Source of the DNA: a virus
Length of the DNA stretch: 34,468 bases
Direction: 5' to 3' (one strand)
IMG/VR virus record: IMGVR_UViG_3300046804_002536
Location: 1-34,468 of that record
The position numbers and the translations under genes were made by a program. The notes under the pieces are model-generated. The model saw nothing but the letters and a program-made list of their open reading frames with translations. It did no database searches and had not been told where the DNA came from. Shown in pieces: positions 3,063 through 15,049 of the stretch (its first letter is position 1; every line of letters starts with the position of its first letter).

Positions 3063-3092
3063 AGTATAACATACAACAAAAATCCTTGTCAA
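3063..3092 (-). promoter_or_regulatory. strong sigma70-type promoter for the tRNA and left operon
   Basis: On the minus strand TTGACA (3087-3092), 18 bases, TATACT (3063-3068) with TGT just before the -10 box (extended -10). The tRNA 5' end lies 12 bases after the -10, so transcription would start about 5 bases upstream of it. Confidence 0.8.
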
Positions 3093-4715: not shown

Positions 4716-4744
4716 AGTATACTCCCATGTATAAATGTTGTCAA
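4716..4744 (-). promoter_or_regulatory. promoter of thioredoxin, leaderless type
   Basis: TTGACA (4739-4744), exactly 17 bases, TATACT (4716-4721). The ATG begins seven bases after the -10 box, where transcription itself should start. Confidence 0.8.
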
Positions 4745-4818: not shown

Positions 4819-5238
4819 TTATTTGACCTTAATGGTCTTCGGCTTCTTTTCTTCTGGAATCTCAATCTCTACTGTAACGTAAAGAATTCCATCTGTTAAT
4901 TCAGCAGACTTTACATATGCATACTCACCAAGGGCAAATGTTCTCTTAAACTTGCGAGTTCCAATTCCCTTATGTAGGTATTCTGTTGTAATTGCGTTGT
5001 CTTCTTTAGAGCCTTCGATAATTAATGTACCGTCCTGCTCAGTCACTGTTACTTGGTCTTTTGAAAAACCAGCCACAGCCATTTCAACAACCCATGTCTC
5101 ATCATCCTTTTTAACTACATTGTATGGTGGGTAGTTATTAGGATTAGCTGAATGAACATGATTTAGACGTTGTAGGGTATGATTAAACCCAATAAAAAAT
5201 GGATCATTAAAAAGATCCAGCCCAAATGTATGGACCAT
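4819..5238 (-). CDS. Hsp20 small heat-shock protein
   Basis: ATP-independent chaperone of the alpha-crystallin type. An N-terminal arm of about 40 residues (DPFFIGFNHTLQRL) is followed by the beta-sandwich domain: WVVEMAVAGFSKDQV, TLIIEGSKED, KFKRTFALGEY and GILYVTVEIEIPEEKKP at residues about 117-133. Length 139 aa is normal. Such genes occur in cyanophages and other aquatic phages and may guard virion assembly or host proteins. It has the clearest Shine-Dalgarno of the region (AAAGGAGG, seven bases from the ATG) and its own promoter. Confidence 0.95.
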   Translation of the reverse strand: MVHTFGLDLFNDPFFIGFNHTLQRLNHVHSANPNNYPPYNVVKKDDETWVVEMAVAGFSKDQVTVTEQDGTLIIEGSKEDNAITTEYLHKGIGTRKFKRTFALGEYAYVKSAELTDGILYVTVEIEIPEEKKPKTIKVK

Positions 5239-7059: not shown

Positions 7060-9084
7060 TTACCTCCTCATTCCAATCAGTGTGCTTGCAATTTGAGATA
7101 CAATCACTACTGGGATAATTACTTCTTGTGCTTTTTCTCTCTGATCGTCTGTCATATCCATACCTAACTCAGAGAAATTAGATAGGAGTTCTAATGGATC
7201 CACATTAAATACCGCTCCAAGTGGATCTGCCAAGAATGCTTCAGCTTGAACTTCAGTTGCAGCATCAGCTAATGTATATGGCATTGGTGCATCTAAATTA
7301 GCATTAGCACGATCACCAAATTCTTCTAGCGCTGTAGCAATAGTTGGATCAGATTTAGCTAATTCCGCAACTAATTTTAATTCCTGTGGGGCAACACCAA
7401 GTGTTTTTGATACAGCCAAAGCCTGTTCTGGCGTAAGTTTTGCTAATGTGTTAGAATTTGTAAGGTCAGCAATTAAATTTGCCATTTCACTATTAACGGG
7501 AGTATTTTTTGTTTTATCAAAAATTTCAGTCTGATCTTGAGTTGGTTCAGGCTCTGGAGTTGGAGTTATATCCTCTGGCTGAGATGAAGGCTCTACAGAA
7601 GGCTCTGGAGAAGTCTCAGGAGTTGGAGTTGGATCTACAGTCTCCTCATCTGTGGTATCAGTGGTTGGCTCTGGAGTGGGATCAACTTGTTCAGTTTGCT
7701 CAGGAGATGGCTCAGGGCTAGGTTCAGGAGAAATTTCTGGAGTTGGTTCTGGAGTTGGCTCTATGCTAGGTTCAGGTGTTGGTTGTGGCTGATTTGCCAT
7801 AGCTTGTGCAATTGCTGCAGCAACTCTTTGTTTTTCCTCAAATTCAAATTGATTATTATATGATTCCCAAGCATCGTCTATAGCATTATTCATATCAATA
7901 ATTGCCTGATTATAATTAGATGATGCAGTATTTTTTGTTGACAACGCATTTGCTGTATTTGATACGGCATTATCATAAGCAGTAGTTTTACTAATTAAAG
8001 TTTGATTATATGTTAAAAGTTTATTATTTTCCTGTGTATATGTAGTAGATGCAGTATTATACGCAGCTAATTTATTATTGTAATCTGTTTGTGCATCCGC
8101 TTGTGCAGTTATAGCTGCATTGTATGCATCAATTTGCTGTTGTGTTGCTCCAGATCCAGAGGAAAATGTATTAAGATTACAACTAAAATCTTGCCCCCAT
8201 ACTCTTGGGTTTCCAGCATAGTCACATCCTGCACCAGTCATTCCACCAGGAATTGTCCATCCAAGATAATAAGACCCTGGGCCTCCCCCGTTGTACCACC
8301 ATATCTCTACATCTAAAGTCTTATCCTGAGTTACATCATATGTTGGAGACCAAGCACTCCATCTTGCTCCCTGCTCTACCCAGTTATTAACTGCAAGAGC
8401 TCCGTTGATATACATTTTAAAACCATCATCTGTGTATCCTGCAAATGCTACTGTTGTAAACCATGATGGAACGGTGATTTGACCAGTAAATTTAACCACA
8501 ATATTTTCATATCTATTTCCGCAAACTGGAAGATACATAGCGTTTGAATTCCATGTACCAGAACATATTACTGAATCTGGTACTGCATAGCTAGGCCATA
8601 TTCTTGCCAAGTTATATACTGTGTAATTAAGTCCGTTTCCGCCAGAGCTTTGGATAACTGATTGTCTTGCTTGAAGATTTGAGTTTGCAGTAGCAAGATT
8701 AATTGCTGAGATATCTAGGGCATCTTTAGTTGAATTTTTATTTTGAAGAGCAGTAGCTACAATTGGTGTCTGTGTATCTACGGCGGATTGAGCTAAATTC
8801 TTTTCTTCTAGGGCAGTTGCTTCCGCTTGGACAGCAGAATCGTATGACTCATTTGCAGCATCTTTGACAGCCTTTGCTGCTACTGCTAATTCATATTTAT
8901 TTTCTGCTATATCTATAAGGTCTTGGGTGGCCTTAGAGTCTGTTAAATTGCCTACCTTTGAGTTTAAATCAGCTATTTGCTGGGCTGCTATAGATAAAGG
9001 ATCATCAGCGCTTGCTGGTATTAAAAATAGCCAAGAAAATGCTATTAAACAAGCGGTGGTAAGCCTTGATGCTTTTACTAACAA
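7060..9084 (-). CDS. secreted PA14-domain surface protein, 674 aa
   Basis: A signal peptide (TTACLIAFSWLFLIPASA) is followed by a coiled coil, then a PA14/GLEYA-type beta domain at residues about 195-285 with the usual DDG calcium motif (YTDDGFKMYING) and several Cys, a second coiled coil, a Pro-Glu-Thr-rich linker (about 435-530) and a helical C-terminal domain ending in a hydrophobic segment and MRR, probably a membrane anchor. PA14 domains bind carbohydrate in known families. Phage tail proteins lack signal peptides, so this is exported by the infected cell. I choose TTG at 9084: GGGGAGAG lies eight bases upstream; a TTG at 9102 is also in frame. Confidence 0.88.
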   Translation of the reverse strand: MLVKASRLTTACLIAFSWLFLIPASADDPLSIAAQQIADLNSKVGNLTDSKATQDLIDIAENKYELAVAAKAVKDAANESYDSAVQAEATALEEKNLAQSAVDTQTPIVATALQNKNSTKDALDISAINLATANSNLQARQSVIQSSGGNGLNYTVYNLARIWPSYAVPDSVICSGTWNSNAMYLPVCGNRYENIVVKFTGQITVPSWFTTVAFAGYTDDGFKMYINGALAVNNWVEQGARWSAWSPTYDVTQDKTLDVEIWWYNGGGPGSYYLGWTIPGGMTGAGCDYAGNPRVWGQDFSCNLNTFSSGSGATQQQIDAYNAAITAQADAQTDYNNKLAAYNTASTTYTQENNKLLTYNQTLISKTTAYDNAVSNTANALSTKNTASSNYNQAIIDMNNAIDDAWESYNNQFEFEEKQRVAAAIAQAMANQPQPTPEPSIEPTPEPTPEISPEPSPEPSPEQTEQVDPTPEPTTDTTDEETVDPTPTPETSPEPSVEPSSQPEDITPTPEPEPTQDQTEIFDKTKNTPVNSEMANLIADLTNSNTLAKLTPEQALAVSKTLGVAPQELKLVAELAKSDPTIATALEEFGDRANANLDAPMPYTLADAATEVQAEAFLADPLGAVFNVDPLELLSNFSELGMDMTDDQREKAQEVIIPVVIVSQIASTLIGMRR
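7540..7790 (-). repeat. Pro-Glu/Thr-Pro coding repeat
   Basis: Imperfect short repeats encode PEPSPEPTPE-like units, forming the extended linker of the secreted protein. On the plus strand they read as repeats of GGTTCTGGAGTTGGCTC type. This is coding low complexity. Confidence 0.8.
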
Positions 9085-9111
9085 TCTGCATTCTCTCCCC
9101 AATCTAGTCTA

Positions 9112-9181: not shown

Positions 9182-10276
9182 TTACTTAACTAGTGTGACC
9201 TTAGCCTTTGGATTCTTTGCATTCCACTTTGCAGCGAGTGCATTGAAAGCCTTCTTTAGGTCTGCAAGTGCCTTAGCATTATCCGCCTTAAGCTTAGCAA
9301 TTTCTGCATCTTTAACAGCAATTGTTGCTGTTGCAGAATCTGTTGCAGCCTTTAGATCTGCTGCAGCCTTTGCTGCAGCTGCTGCTGCTGTAGCATTTGC
9401 TGTTGCAAGTGCTGCTTCTGCAGTAGCTTTTGCTGCAAGAGCAGCATCACGAGCAGCAGTTACTGCTGCAAGTTCTCCAGCCAAATCACGAACTGTGATT
9501 GATTTAACTACAGAAGATGTTACGGTATTGAAACCTGCTACTACTGTAGCAATATCTCCTGCTGCTGCTGAGACTACAAGTGTTGTTGTACCAGTTGTTG
9601 GTAATGTAACCTTGAAATCTGCTGAGCCAAAGTTTGTTAATGTTGCGCCTGTTGTGGCTGTTGTTGTGTCAACTGTTCCGTTAACTACAAGTGCTGTCAG
9701 AGTCTTTCCAGAAACCTTGTTTCCGAATACGTCTGAAGCTGTTGCTGTAACTGTTACAACGCTAGATGTTGAACCAGAATCATTGCCTGCAAGAGCAAGT
9801 GTGTTGATCTTACCTGCAGTACCCTGTACATAATATGTAAGAGTTGTTCCCTGGTTATTTACAACTACTGTTCCAACTGCTGTTGTCTTTGTATATACAT
9901 AGAAGGTAGCAGATGTTCCTGTACCTGTAGCAATTGTTAGTGATGCTGAGCCAGATGATGCGTTCACTGGCGCTGCTGCTGCGTTTGTAGCAGATACGAT
10001 TGTTGCATTTGTTGCAGAAACAGTTACTGATGTGCCTGTGTCAACAGTAGCAACGAATCTAACGACATCGCTGTCATCAATTACGTTATCTTCTGGGACA
10101 GGGCGAGTAATTGCTGTTGCTGCAGATGTTCCTGTAGTAACAGTTGTCCAAGTGGTTGATCCACCTGAGACTGCACCTGTTGATGTTACAACTGTCATTG
10201 GAGCTGCATTAGCTGGTGCTGCCACTAAAGTAGCCAGACCTAGTACTGATGCAACTAGAATTGATAGTTTCTTCAT
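9182..10276 (-). CDS. secreted Ala/Thr/Val-rich protein, 364 aa
   Basis: A textbook signal peptide (MKKLSILVASVLGLATLVAA, cleavage after PANA) is followed by Thr/Val/Ser-rich beta domains of the bacterial Ig-like or adhesin type (SVVTVTATASDVFGNKVSGK at about residues 170-190 looks like an invasin/Ig-like repeat) and by a long Ala-rich coiled coil (AARDAALAAKATAEAALA). It ends in NPKAKVTLVK. It is strongly biased to Ala/Thr codons and richer in GC than its neighbours. Similar secreted proteins are typical of the cell surface of freshwater actinobacteria, so host origin is likely. The ATG at 10276 is chosen over an upstream frame because the signal peptide starts there. Confidence 0.88.
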   Translation of the reverse strand: MKKLSILVASVLGLATLVAAPANAAPMTVVTSTGAVSGGSTTWTTVTTGTSAATAITRPVPEDNVIDDSDVVRFVATVDTGTSVTVSATNATIVSATNAAAAPVNASSGSASLTIATGTGTSATFYVYTKTTAVGTVVVNNQGTTLTYYVQGTAGKINTLALAGNDSGSTSSVVTVTATASDVFGNKVSGKTLTALVVNGTVDTTTATTGATLTNFGSADFKVTLPTTGTTTLVVSAAAGDIATVVAGFNTVTSSVVKSITVRDLAGELAAVTAARDAALAAKATAEAALATANATAAAAAAKAAADLKAATDSATATIAVKDAEIAKLKADNAKALADLKKAFNALAAKWNAKNPKAKVTLVK

Positions 10277-10315
10277 AGTTTGTTTTTTATCCTCTTCAAT
10301 TGATTTGGTTTGATT

Positions 10316-10334
10316 TTGTGTGTCAACCACACAA
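10316..10334 (-). promoter_or_regulatory. 5'-terminal stem-loop of the secreted-protein mRNA
   Basis: TTGTGTG-GTTGA-CACACAA: a perfect 7-bp inverted repeat that begins at the predicted transcription start. It could be an operator at +1 or an RNA hairpin protecting the mRNA end. Confidence 0.55.
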
Positions 10335-10340
10335 GTCTTA

Positions 10341-10369
10341 ATAATACCAAATTTGCTGCTAGTCGTCAA
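10341..10369 (-). promoter_or_regulatory. promoter of the secreted Ala/Thr-rich protein
   Basis: TTGACG (10364-10369), 17 bases, TATTAT (10341-10346), with TGG before the -10 box. The -35 box covers the last codons of the 45-residue gene above. Confidence 0.75.
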
Positions 10370-10496
10370 ATTCAGTATCTTCTTCTTCAGATAGATCAAT
10401 ATCTATGCTGTGAAATACCCGTGAATATAACCAATCAATTCCTTTTTGGAACTGATAAACTACCCACCAGTAAATCTCCACTATTGCTTTGGCCAT
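10359..10496 (-). CDS. small Trp-rich protein with acidic tail, 45 aa
   Basis: Read by hand. The N-terminal half is aromatic and moderately hydrophobic (VEIYWWVVYQFQKGIDWLY) and the end is strongly acidic (DLSEEEDTEFDD). It overlaps the preceding gene by 16 bases and is probably translated by coupling. Function unknown; the aromatic part might lie on a membrane surface. Confidence 0.65.
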   Translation of the reverse strand: MAKAIVEIYWWVVYQFQKGIDWLYSRVFHSIDIDLSEEEDTEFDD

Positions 10497-10774
10497 GTCC
10501 CGTCCAAGTTCATGATTGCTATAGCAGAATAATTTAAATCATCTATAAACGTCTCCCTGAGACTTTCAAATTGTGGCTTCTCAGTTGGCTTATTATAAAA
10601 TAAGTTCTTGATACGCTCAAACTTATCATGCTTCCTTACGATAAGACCATTAATTGCTCCACCTGGGGCAGACGCAATATTTAGGGGGCCGTAATCCTTA
10701 TGCTTACGAAGAAGCAAGGTATAGGCCTCATCAAAAATCTTTTTTACTTCTTTTTCAAAATCAGCATTAGGCAT
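10481..10774 (-). CDS. DUF1599 / nucleotide-modification-associated protein, 97 aa
   Basis: Residues about 15-45 (LLLRKHKDYGPLNI, then PGGAINGLIVRKHDKFERI) and ESLRETFIDDLNYSAIAI match the DUF1599 family, also called nucleotide modification associated domain 1, whose MazG-like helical fold suggests action on nucleotides. The exact reaction is unknown. The ATG at 10774 overlaps the previous stop by eight bases; a longer frame from 10828 lies entirely in that gene and is rejected. Confidence 0.85.
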   Translation of the reverse strand: MPNADFEKEVKKIFDEAYTLLLRKHKDYGPLNIASAPGGAINGLIVRKHDKFERIKNLFYNKPTEKPQFESLRETFIDDLNYSAIAIMNLDGTWPKQ

Positions 10775-10973
10775 TTTTAATCTCTTCCGCAAGTTTATTG
10801 AACTGTTCCATAAAAATATTAAGAGCAAATGTTACTTGATCTACAGAATGTTTATATGCTTCTTCCATTTCAGGTGGAGTTAGCTTATTTTCTGGATCTG
10901 GGTAGTACTTATTGTGAAATTCACGAACTACTTCAAGAACAATCGCTTCCATTTGTGTTGCATCAATTGCCAT
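10767..10973 (-). CDS. hypothetical helical protein, 68 aa
   Basis: Unrecognised. Acidic and helical, with KYYPDPENKLTPPEMEEAY in the middle. It overlaps the proteasome-like gene by 11 bases and DUF1599 by eight, so all three are probably made together. Confidence 0.7.
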   Translation of the reverse strand: MAIDATQMEAIVLEVVREFHNKYYPDPENKLTPPEMEEAYKHSVDQVTFALNIFMEQFNKLAEEIKNA

Positions 10974-11523
10974 TATTTTTCTCCTTCTTGTTTAAAATAC
11001 TTACTACATCTACTGGTCCCATACAACTAGGGCTATATTTAACTGCAGCCTCAATTGCTGTTCTTACTCTACGCTTTCCATCATTCCATCCTTCTGTTGA
11101 ATGTAATGATCCTAGAGCATATTCTGAACCGCTACCAACAGACAAATGGTCTGTTTGAAAGCGTGTCATTGACATTGTTCCTGCATCATGCTCATAGATA
11201 TATTTATCTATAACTATAATCATTCCAAAATCAGCATCTTTATCTTGCGTAGCAAATACAAAGTGCTCATCATAGAAAGACTTCAATGCTTGCGTGAAAT
11301 CCGTAAGCATAAATTTATCTAGATTTCCCTTTTTAGGGGCTGGTGGATGAAAGTTATACATAACTTTTTCTCCGTCCATACTGCCATAATATCCAAACAG
11401 GTACGGTCCAGTCTGCCAAACTTTAGGATGTGCTAAAGGGAAAATGACATTATCGTCAGAAGCACCTCTATCACCAGCAATGAATGCACCATTATCGTTT
11501 ACTACCGCAGCTATTACAGTCAC
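10963..11523 (-). CDS. proteasome beta / HslV-like Ntn-hydrolase
   Basis: The start of the protein, MTVIAAVVNDNGAFIAGDRG, is that of a self-exposed threonine protease. With the initiator Met removed, T2 is the nucleophile, D18 matches Asp17 and K34 matches Lys33 of proteasome beta subunits, and GSGSEYALG (130-138) matches the conserved Ser129 loop. At 186 aa it is near the size of HslV or Anbu-type subunits, without an unfoldase gene next to it. It could be a protease ring working with host ATPases, or have another hydrolase function. The start codon is GTG, overlapping the previous stop as GTGA; it has its own promoter inside the upstream gene. Confidence 0.88.
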   Translation of the reverse strand: MTVIAAVVNDNGAFIAGDRGASDDNVIFPLAHPKVWQTGPYLFGYYGSMDGEKVMYNFHPPAPKKGNLDKFMLTDFTQALKSFYDEHFVFATQDKDADFGMIIVIDKYIYEHDAGTMSMTRFQTDHLSVGSGSEYALGSLHSTEGWNDGKRRVRTAIEAAVKYSPSCMGPVDVVSILNKKEKNNGN

Positions 11524-11744
11524 TTATTAATCCAATCAACTATTTTTCGAAATTGCTTCTTCAAATTGTTTACTCTTACAAGTATAACAAAAAGAAGTAG
11601 CAGTGTCAAGACTGGAAATGGATCACCCGCATCATTAATTATTCTATTATATAGCTCAAATAATATATAATAAATAAAACCAGCCCATATTCCAAGGCCT
11701 ATTAATAATCCTATTACATACCCTACTTGTTCTGCACGTTTCAT
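11520..11744 (-). CDS. two-span membrane protein, 74 aa
   Basis: Hydrophobic segments at residues about 6-29 (VGYVIGLLIGLGIWAGFIYYI core) and 42-56 (PVLTLLLLFVILVRV) with a basic C-terminus. Unrecognised. The ATG at 11744 makes an ATGA overlap with the gene above. Its 3' half carries the promoter for the Ntn-hydrolase. Confidence 0.7.
   Translation of the reverse strand: MKRAEQVGYVIGLLIGLGIWAGFIYYILFELYNRIINDAGDPFPVLTLLLLFVILVRVNNLKKQFRKIVDWINK
11581..11609 (-). promoter_or_regulatory. internal promoter for the proteasome-like gene
   Basis: TTGACA (11604-11609), 17 bases, TATACT (11581-11586) with TGT before the -10, all inside the membrane-protein gene. The predicted RNA starts about 50 bases before the GTG start codon of the hydrolase. 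Confidence 0.65.
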
Positions 11745-12182: not shown

Positions 12183-12432
12183 TTCCTGGGACCCCTTCGA
12201 ACTCGCATCTTACACCAAATGATTCTATTACTTTTCTAACTAAATTAATATAATCAGTAATTAATACACGCTGATTAATATCAAATGACATGATGTTATC
12301 TTCATACATTCTTATAGTTAAAAACTCTGGATATTTTACAACATCAATAATAATATTAGGAAAAGGCTTTTTTACTTGTCTAACAGCTCCAGCCATTTGT
12401 TTTGTATAAACTACTGGTCTACTTTTGTCCAT
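12157..12432 (-). CDS. hypothetical protein, 91 aa
   Basis: Unrecognised. Basic N-terminus and a beta-rich middle (PNIIIDVVKYPEFLTIRMYE). It starts 14 bases inside whiB and is probably co-translated with it. Confidence 0.7.
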   Translation of the reverse strand: MDKSRPVVYTKQMAGAVRQVKKPFPNIIIDVVKYPEFLTIRMYEDNIMSFDINQRVLITDYINLVRKVIESFGVRCEFEGVPGNGRKTLSR

Positions 12433-12733
12433 GTTTGGACTTCCACTTTTTCCATACTTCTTGTGTCTTATGTGAATTTCTTGTTTTATCTAATGCCCCA
12501 AGACTTAGATATACTCCGCCCCAAACACCGTACTCCGCATTATTAGTACCAGCATCATGACACTGTTTTGCAACAGGACATACAAGGCACATCTGATCTA
12601 TATTTTTTGCTATTGTTTGATCAGCCTCATATGTATCAAAAAAGAAATCTGTTTCAATTCCATTACATGCTGCCAAATCTGTCCAATGAATATCATCTGG
12701 ATCAATGCCTAAATCATCTAATATGTTTGACAT
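12419..12733 (-). CDS. WhiB-family iron-sulfur regulator, 104 aa
   Basis: WhiB-like proteins are Fe-S transcription factors limited to actinobacteria and their phages. The four cluster ligands are C23 (AACNG), C49, C52 and C58 (CLVCPVAKQC), followed by the family turn GVWGG (69-73) and a basic C-terminus (KKWKSKHGQK) for DNA or sigma-factor contact. Phage copies are known to interfere with host WhiB2-type control of division or exclude superinfecting phage. I choose the ATG at 12733, 20 bases inside the previous gene; an in-frame ATG at 12760 is possible. Confidence 0.93.
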   Translation of the reverse strand: MSNILDDLGIDPDDIHWTDLAACNGIETDFFFDTYEADQTIAKNIDQMCLVCPVAKQCHDAGTNNAEYGVWGGVYLSLGALDKTRNSHKTQEVWKKWKSKHGQK

Positions 12734-12935
12734 ATTTGTCGGGAATCCTCCATTTTCCATCTTCAGAAACTACAAATGTTTCTGATATTCCCCAGCTACC
12801 ATTATGTCTTAATCCGTTTGTTTTGTAAATAGCCTCATTATCTTCTTTCCAGAAAATAAGTTTCCATCCATCCCAAAAAAAATTTTTATTGTTTTGTACT
12901 AATACATGAGCTGTATTGTAATCAAAAACGGCCAC
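12714..12935 (-). CDS. hypothetical protein upstream of whiB, 73 aa
   Basis: Unrecognised, Trp-rich (FFWDGWKLIFWKEDNEA). The GTG at 12935 follows GAAAGG on a leader of only about 12 bases from a well-formed promoter, so it opens the whiB transcript. Confidence 0.72.
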   Translation of the reverse strand: MAVFDYNTAHVLVQNNKNFFWDGWKLIFWKEDNEAIYKTNGLRHNGSWGISETFVVSEDGKWRIPDKYVKHIR

Positions 12936-13370: not shown

Positions 13371-13521
13371 TATTTTTATCCTCTTTCTTCTTTCCGTACT
13401 CTCCATACTTTCCAAGAACTGATTGAATTCTGCCATCTTTACGAAGTCTGACAATCATTCCGTTTTTAATCTGAATTGGATTAAACTTAACGTGCTTCTT
13501 GTATGATCCGCCTGATGCCAC
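13363..13521 (-). CDS. small basic protein, 52 aa
   Basis: Read by hand. A basic protein (KKHVKFNPIQIKNGMIVRLR, then VLGKYGEYGKKKEDK) with the look of a small nucleic-acid binder. It starts with GTG that shares a base with the nuclease stop (TAGTG), and overlaps the next gene by eight bases. Confidence 0.68.
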   Translation of the reverse strand: MASGGSYKKHVKFNPIQIKNGMIVRLRKDGRIQSVLGKYGEYGKKKEDKNNG

Positions 13522-13907
13522 TATACAAGCTTGACATCAATAGTTGTTTTAGCTAGTTCTGCTTCAGACCATAGCCCAACTTTTGAGTCTCCTCCGTAGC
13601 TTTTAGCAATTCCGAGTCTAAGCATTTGATCGTTAATGCTTTCCTCAGAATCTAAATAAACTTTTCCTAAGTATCTTCCATACTTATCTGGCTTTGATAC
13701 TTCAAGCTTAACTAACTTGCCCTCTAATGTATCAATTAAAAGCTTCTTAGTTGCTTTACCAAACTCTGTATTCTTTTCTGCTGTATCAATACCAGATAGT
13801 CTGATACGCTCTTTGTGCCAAACGCTAAATCCTAGATCAATAAATACGTCAACGGTATCCCCGTCAACTACCTTGTCTATCTTTGTGAAATATGTATACA
13901 TTGCCAT
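13521..13907 (-). CDS. thermonuclease, staphylococcal nuclease family
   Basis: A compact SNase OB-fold nuclease of 128 aa. The catalytic set is present: VVDGDTVD (D17), R36 and D41/E44 in RIRLSGIDTAEK, and R78 in KYGRYLG, matching Asp21, Arg35, Asp40, Glu43 and Arg87 of the model enzyme. It should cut DNA or RNA using calcium. No signal peptide is visible, so it would act in the cell, for example on host DNA. A TGCTATAAT box directly after tRNA-Asp would start RNA three bases before the ATG. Confidence 0.93.
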   Translation of the reverse strand: MAMYTYFTKIDKVVDGDTVDVFIDLGFSVWHKERIRLSGIDTAEKNTEFGKATKKLLIDTLEGKLVKLEVSKPDKYGRYLGKVYLDSEESINDQMLRLGIAKSYGGDSKVGLWSEAELAKTTIDVKLV

Positions 13908-14396: not shown

Positions 14397-14573
14397 TTAG
14401 CCTCCTTTAGAGTACCAACCAGAACCCTTTAAGTCAATTCCAAAAGTTCTATAAACTTTTTTCATTGCACTATCACATTTAGGGCAGTCTGGAATAACCT
14501 CTGGATCAAGAATAGATCTTTGTATTTCTATAATATCTTCAGAGCAATCACATTTATATTCGTATACTGGCAT
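14397..14573 (-). CDS. FmdB-type zinc-ribbon protein, 58 aa
   Basis: The start MPVYEYKCDC, the second pair CPKC and the end GSGWYSKGG are typical of the FmdB / CxxC_CxxC_SSSS family of small zinc-ribbon proteins, thought to be regulatory. The ATG at 14573 forms TAATG with the upstream stop. Confidence 0.88.
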   Translation of the reverse strand: MPVYEYKCDCSEDIIEIQRSILDPEVIPDCPKCDSAMKKVYRTFGIDLKGSGWYSKGG

Positions 14574-15049
14574 TATCTTCCTATGTGTGTTGGCCAAAAA
14601 TAACTACACTCTTCACAGCATGGATCATTCATTGGATCATCATAGGATGACTGGAATAATCCATATTCGTAAGAATCCTTGCGATATAAATTTGCTTGAT
14701 GGGTTGTAATTACACGATGAAGCATTGTCTTATCTTTCATCCAAAATGGTCTGCCGTTGCAAGTAATATTATTAAAATGTACTTCCATAATATCTTCAAT
14801 AGCATTTAAATTATTTTGATACTTAATGCCACGCTCATTACATTCTTTGGCTATCGCAAGAAGATATTTATACAGCATACCCTCTGAGCCAGCCCACATT
14901 TTAGTTGCTGGATGATTTCTCCAACCTTTAGACGTTCCTGCTAGAGCAGCAAGAATCTGCCTTCCCTCTAATAGTTGTTTATTTAATCTTTTTGAATCTA
15001 GCACTGAAGCAACTTCATCAAAGTCGCTGTATGGCATAAATGTTTGCAC
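14573..15049 (-). CDS. Pyr_excise / MSMEG_6728 family protein
   Basis: The N-terminal signature MQTFMPYSDFDEVASVLDSK followed by RLNKQLLEGRQIL, NHPATKMWAG and a His-containing ATTHQANLYRKD-type end fits the MSMEG_6728 family, grouped with pyrimidine-dimer DNA glycosylases (Pyr_excise). A DNA-repair function is suggested by the family name, not shown. Three Cys near the C-terminus (CCEECSYFW) are an unusual addition and may bind metal. Confidence 0.82.
   Translation of the reverse strand: MQTFMPYSDFDEVASVLDSKRLNKQLLEGRQILAALAGTSKGWRNHPATKMWAGSEGMLYKYLLAIAKECNERGIKYQNNLNAIEDIMEVHFNNITCNGRPFWMKDKTMLHRVITTHQANLYRKDSYEYGLFQSSYDDPMNDPCCEECSYFWPTHIGR

Follow-up and report, generated by a model that had tools for sequence, protein, structure and literature searches.

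A proteasome-like Ntn hydrolase predicted to be a threonine peptidase in a freshwater branch of actinobacterial phages

The window analyzed here is an IMG/VR virus record of 34,468 nucleotides, and it encodes a proteasome-like Ntn hydrolase of 186 residues. This protein is a real, conserved phage peptidase of a known kind, and it is probably active. By enzyme class, both the sequence and the predicted structure mark it as almost certainly a proteasome-like threonine peptidase. It is a group I proteasome-like homolog (the HslV/BPH/AAH/PPH group), of the phage-borne kind already described in 2021, and its freshwater clade forms an actinophage branch under strong constraint, in which the promoter and the gene neighborhood are conserved. 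The best explanation as a whole, to which we give a probability of roughly 0.55, is that the enzyme would be an ATPase-independent, BPH-like compartmentalized peptidase used during infection. The observations computed for this account are the homology, the fold, the catalytic residues, the conservation of the promoter and the finding that the searched records contain no dedicated AAA+ partner.

Catalytic residues and conservation

The hydrolase gene (10963..11523, minus strand) starts with GTG, the corresponding codon being ATG in relatives. Its product begins with MTVIAAVVNDNGAFIAGDRGASDDNVIFPLAHPK and matches PHROG 1040, 'peptidase HslV family', with an E-value of 4.8e-17. When the initial Met is discounted, T1, D17 and K33 fall in the proteasome register. 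The initial annotation had equated Thr2, Asp18 and Lys34, as numbered with Met, with Thr1, Asp17 and Lys33 of proteasome beta subunits, and our alignment confirmed this assignment. The codons of Thr2 (11518..11520; Thr1 after Met removal and the predicted nucleophile), Asp18 (11470..11472) and Lys34 (11422..11424), all on the minus strand, specify residues that are invariant in 27/27 homologs. The T2+D18+K34 pattern was present in 39 of the 1274 ORFs of at least 100 aa from the window and all of the collected loci, some of which overlap. Since all 39 are members of the hydrolase family, a chance origin of the spacing was ruled out.

The Ser-containing GSGS loop, also pointed out initially, is present at residues 130-133 (11125..11136, minus strand). 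Both of its Gly residues are invariant across the 27 homologs. Ser131, the equivalent of Ser129, does not vary within the freshwater clade; in the wider family this position holds S, C, T or A, and once G (L039), which makes it a weaker mark than the T/D/K set. The close clade always has G47 (numbered with Met) and the wider family G, S, T, Q or H at that position, the register relative to the oxyanion-hole Gly47 being ambiguous by one residue.

A search for the gene in related phages yielded ten close relatives from viral contigs, 73-90% identical to the window hydrolase, as well as diverse homologs, which share 21-29% identity with it outside the window's own clade. All ten close relatives (nine aligned with the window, plus L009) retain Thr2, Asp18, Lys34 and the GSG loop. 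In L009 (L009:5001-5551), the reading frame of the hydrolase is interrupted beyond residue 154, with a tblastn match up to residue 182, reflecting a frameshift or an assembly error. Across the 27 diverse homologs, window included, only M1, T2, D18, K34, G130 and G132 are invariant, and all 27 start with Met-Thr, i.e. have no propeptide. The freshwater clade received 100/99 support in the tree and has a long stem (2.18 changes per site), and its place among the other clades is unsure.

With the window hydrolase as the query, zero matches were obtained in genome contigs. The Streptomyces homolog as the query retrieved six bacterial loci in genome contigs, and the Vibrio homolog retrieved no viral contigs. 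Homologs are present in Streptomyces and Mesorhizobium. In Aeromonas phage 2L372X (L051:2995-3957), two adjacent genes are annotated as peptidase HslV family.

Overall fold

A Pfam search with the single window hydrolase sequence gave no match. The profile of the 27 homologs matched HslV (2.4e-13) and BPH (6.8e-13) along its whole length, beginning at Thr1; the window hydrolase itself gave a weak sequence match to the BPH structure 5ovu (E 0.0006), and HslV was equally good with the family profile. The AlphaFold2 monomer model, computed from 22 sequences, has a mean pLDDT of 89.6 and a pTM of 0.86. An alignment of only 10 close sequences had produced a poor model (pLDDT 66.6), which was fixed by the wider alignment.

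The model consists of a β-sheet core with flanking helix pairs, on which Foldseek and VIA-align agree, and has a pair of helices (residues 51-57 and 68-87) between S4 and S5. Foldseek ranked BPH and HslV first. VIA-align superposed 172 residues on the BPH-epoxomicin complex with a Z score of 20.4 and an rmsd of 2.8, as compared to Z scores of 18-19.5 for HslV and about 18 for mycobacterial PrcB. Structure prediction and comparison with HslV and PrcB thus bore out the earlier reading, indicating a proteasome-type Ntn hydrolase fold with BPH and HslV as the best matches. In BFVD, 38 viral models matched at E 0.001 or better, and the fold is therefore widespread in phages.

Comparison with known proteasome-like proteins

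Fuchs, Alva and Lupas described 22 new proteasome-like homologs in 2021, of which PPH and AAH are notably phage-borne (PMC8665760). Like the window hydrolase, PPH and AAH possess Thr1/Asp17/Lys33, lack a propeptide and have no AAA+ partner found. However, PPH has about 140 residues and no helix H2 (PMC8665760), whereas the window hydrolase has 186 residues and a second helix of 20 residues. PPH membership was rejected on this length and on the two helices between S4 and S5. Membership in AAH, which was compared by its description only, is plausible by size and by hosts (the Streptomyces and Mesorhizobium homologs).

BPH, a tetradecamer without a known unfoldase, sheds its initial Met and is bound by epoxomicin at Thr1 (PMC5777263). 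It is the closest solved fold (PDB 5OVS/5OVT/5OVU) and shares with the window hydrolase the Met-Thr start and acidic residues at the pore-loop position. In contrast to BPH, to which it is about 20% identical, the window hydrolase is phage-encoded and its acidic stretch is much shorter. HslV (ClpQ) resembles it in fold, catalytic set, size (about 175 residues) and GSG loop, but is only 14-19% identical to it, and no HslU is found in the phages. Against the HslV family models, the window hydrolase gave no match, the only match being a weak one to 20S_bact_beta.

PrcB, the actinobacterial proteasome beta subunit, has the same catalytic triad and core fold. The window hydrolase differs from it by the lack of a propeptide and by a shorter C-terminus, and is 15-20% identical to the PrcB structures. 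Its identification as PrcB was rejected, as its score of 21.8 bits lies below the TIGR03690 cut-off of 191.9 and it begins with Met-Thr. The PHROG 1040 members (Yersinia phage phiR201, Aeromonas phages and Planktophila phages E7/F5) are homologous over the full length, but at 20-30% identity, with the freshwater clade forming a distinct branch.

Promoter and operon structure

The hydrolase gene had been assigned a TTGACA-17-TATACT promoter of its own, placed inside the neighboring membrane-protein gene. The element proved to be conserved, but it does not precede the hydrolase alone. The sigma-70-type promoter TTGACA-N17-TATACT (11581..11609, minus strand) lies inside the membrane-protein gene, 86 nt upstream of the hydrolase start codon. 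The strict pattern TTGACA-N16-18-TATAMT matched three times in the window, with 0.11 matches expected. TTGACA-N17-TATA(C/A)T, with its 17-nt spacer, is located at exactly -86 in 10/10 sequences that have the membrane gene (the window and nine relatives), and both the membrane gene and the box are absent in L003. The membrane gene has 17 fully conserved degenerate residues, four of which have invariant codons, and three of these four are box codons (TTG, ACA and ATA; hypergeometric 0.006, with kinship among the sequences ignored). This codon conservation ruled out a chance box. Two further strict TTGACA-N17/18-TATACT boxes, at 3063-3092 and 4716-4744 on the minus strand of the window, are also well above chance.

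The membrane gene (11520..11744, minus strand) encodes 74 aa and ends in a TGA that overlaps the GTG/ATG start codon of the hydrolase, so the two genes are likely to be translationally coupled. On the other side, a 68-aa ORF (10767..10973, minus strand) has an 11-nt overlap at its start with the end of the hydrolase gene, and this ORF is in turn overlapped by 8 nt by the gene for a 97-aa DUF1599-like protein (10481..10774, minus strand; PHROG 1485, below the Pfam cut-off). The DUF1599-like gene adjoins the hydrolase in the relatives, L003 included. Given these overlaps, the promoter probably serves a unit of three genes (hydrolase, 68 aa and 97-aa DUF1599-like) rather than the hydrolase alone.

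Phage lineage and gene neighborhood

A WhiB-like regulator (12419..12760, minus strand; E 1.4e-11) is encoded upstream of the hydrolase in the same gene run and marks an actinobacterial host. The order WhiB, two small genes, hydrolase and DUF1599-like gene is kept even in the divergent L003, and in DSL-LC01 a hydrolase homolog is followed by WhiB. The window DNA polymerase is 56-58% identical to those of BillNye, which is placed in Stanwilliamsviridae, and other Streptomyces phages. The encoded WhiB and the BillNye-like polymerase thus support the earlier connection to actinobacteria.

BillNye has no hydrolase homolog even by profile search, and therefore either the freshwater branch acquired the gene or BillNye lost it. 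A BillNye gene annotated 'peptidase' was considered as the counterpart and rejected, since its sequence reads as an apparently unrelated cysteine-peptidase-like protein. The freshwater contigs, listed as linear, could be fragments.

Proposed role and alternatives

We infer the activity, assembly, ATP independence and substrates of the enzyme in the following scheme. Host methionine aminopeptidase would remove the Met and expose Thr1, so that no propeptide would be needed. The subunits would close into a homo-oligomeric single or double ring, as in BPH and HslV, with the active sites inside; such an assembly is likely. The hydrolase would need no unfoldase dedicated to it, and its targets in the infected cell would be host or phage proteins that are unstructured or held by chaperones. 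It would be made from the conserved promoter in the preceding gene, together with the products of the two small downstream genes. Because the genome position of the homolog varies, a general infection service may be favored over one structural substrate, although a general clearance role during infection is put forward tentatively, at somewhat less than even odds. The authors of the BPH study considered that BPH may have a specialized substrate range (PMC5777263), so that the catalytic residues are no guarantee of a promiscuous peptidase.

The processing of virion proteins, suggested in the initial annotation, would mean that the hydrolase trims virion or prohead proteins as an assembly protease. 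This suggestion lost ground in the window lineage but drew some support from more distant phages. In the Planktophila phages LanE43-AprE7 (E7) and AprF5 (F5), whose isolation is described in PMC10202952 and whose records carry no annotation, the homolog directly follows the portal gene (L055:7500-8036 and L052:6001-6537, respectively). It lies upstream of the scaffold and the major head protein, and no recognized head protease was present among the head genes scanned. Similarly, the homolog is located between the portal and the head maturation protease in the soil phage contig L043, and just before a terminase small subunit match in L041. However, in the window lineage a distinct gene homologous to the BillNye head maturation protease is present in four relatives of 90-108 kb (G002, G003, G007 and G010), which makes the hydrolase only one of the candidates for capsid processing there. 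In this lineage, the gene sits within the WhiB/tRNA gene run with no head genes beside it, which, together with the separate protease, led us to reject it as the only head protease of a head cluster. Furthermore, BillNye, a close relative by polymerase, lacks it, and in T5-like, Ochrobactrum and Vibrio phages the homolog lies among nucleotide-metabolism genes. An assembly protease is thus unlikely, though it survives best among the alternatives.

The two high-G+C viral contigs with the homolog in head/packaging modules (L043:1382-3543 and L041:3001-3996) also suggest that the actinobacterial chromosomal copies may travel with prophages.

HslV and PrcB act as proteolytic chambers docked to AAA+ ATPases, and the hydrolase could likewise dock to a host ATPase (Mpa/ARC, ClpX or similar) and redirect host degradation. 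The observation that no ATPase partner is encoded nearby holds, and extends to the 90-108 kb relatives: AAA_2/HslU gave no match in the freshwater relatives, these contigs included, and no AAA match exceeded the cut-off. HslU was not found in the related phage records, E7, D'Alembert and DSL-LC01 included; DSL-LC01 has two AAA-family matches, which would be candidate partners only. As the freshwater contigs may be fragments, an ATPase could sit in their missing parts. Among the sampled species of the actinobacterial phylum, a proteasomal ATPase (Mpa/ARC) scores above the curated cut-off in 106/246, a count that applies to the phylum. On the other hand, Mpa docks on the proteasome alpha ring, whereas the hydrolase resembles beta/HslV-type subunits only. 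Mpa was over the cut-off in none of about 18 sampled genomes of at most 1.5 Mb (counted by eye), a point of relevance should the host be a streamlined actinobacterium from freshwater; a literature search for the proteasome in Nanopelagicales found no papers. Moreover, Fuchs et al. found no AAA+ partners co-occurring with the phage-borne homologs (PMC8665760), and we regard docking to a host ATPase as rather improbable.

A substrate-specific Ntn enzyme, such as a connectase-like peptide ligase or a peptide-trimming enzyme, is also conceivable, since connectase, a member of the proteasome-like family, is a specific protein ligase (PMC8665760), and the long stem of the freshwater clade may reflect a changed function. 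However, the model has no connectase-type helical insertion between S3 and S4, and with BPH and HslV as the best structural matches, this alternative seems quite improbable. Phages often encode look-alikes of host subunits, but a decoy that would insert itself into a host proteasome-like complex or block it is very improbable here, as the strictly invariant T/D/K set favors catalysis and the identity to the PrcB structures is low.

If the ATPase-independent reading is true, an ATPase-free phage ring protease would amount to a viral ATP-independent proteasome. Phage proteasome homologs have no known function, and the freshwater clade adds an actinophage branch to them. The portal-adjacent homologs in the cultured-host phages E7 and F5 make the role open to test, and they bear on the 2021 statement by Fuchs et al. 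that AAH could not be found in any phage specific to actinobacteria (PMC8665760). It is a speculative and rather doubtful generalization that actinobacterial phages, including cultured phages of Nanopelagicales, a freshwater order, use their own ATPase-free proteasome-like ring protease to clear or remodel proteins in infection, in the window lineage perhaps together with a phage HSP20.

Additional genes in the window and its relatives

The window encodes an HSP20 small heat-shock protein (4819-5238, minus strand; Pfam 2.8e-17), which is also present in five freshwater relatives. It was rejected as a family-wide partner of the hydrolase, being absent in DSL-LC01, E7/F5 and D'Alembert, and in BillNye too. 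Two large proteins (7060-9102 and 9182-10399, minus strand) have apparent signal peptides, and one of them shows a sub-threshold PA14 match and proline/glutamate repeats; they are possibly cell-surface or host-derived proteins. In a relative, a PBP_like_2 phosphate-binding-protein-like gene (L020:10364-11410; 9.9e-41) with an apparent signal peptide lies between the two surface-protein genes, and is possibly a pstS-type metabolic gene. Near the tRNA cluster, the window encodes a pyrimidine dimer DNA glycosylase (14573-15049, minus strand) and a staphylococcal-nuclease homologue (13521-13907, minus strand).
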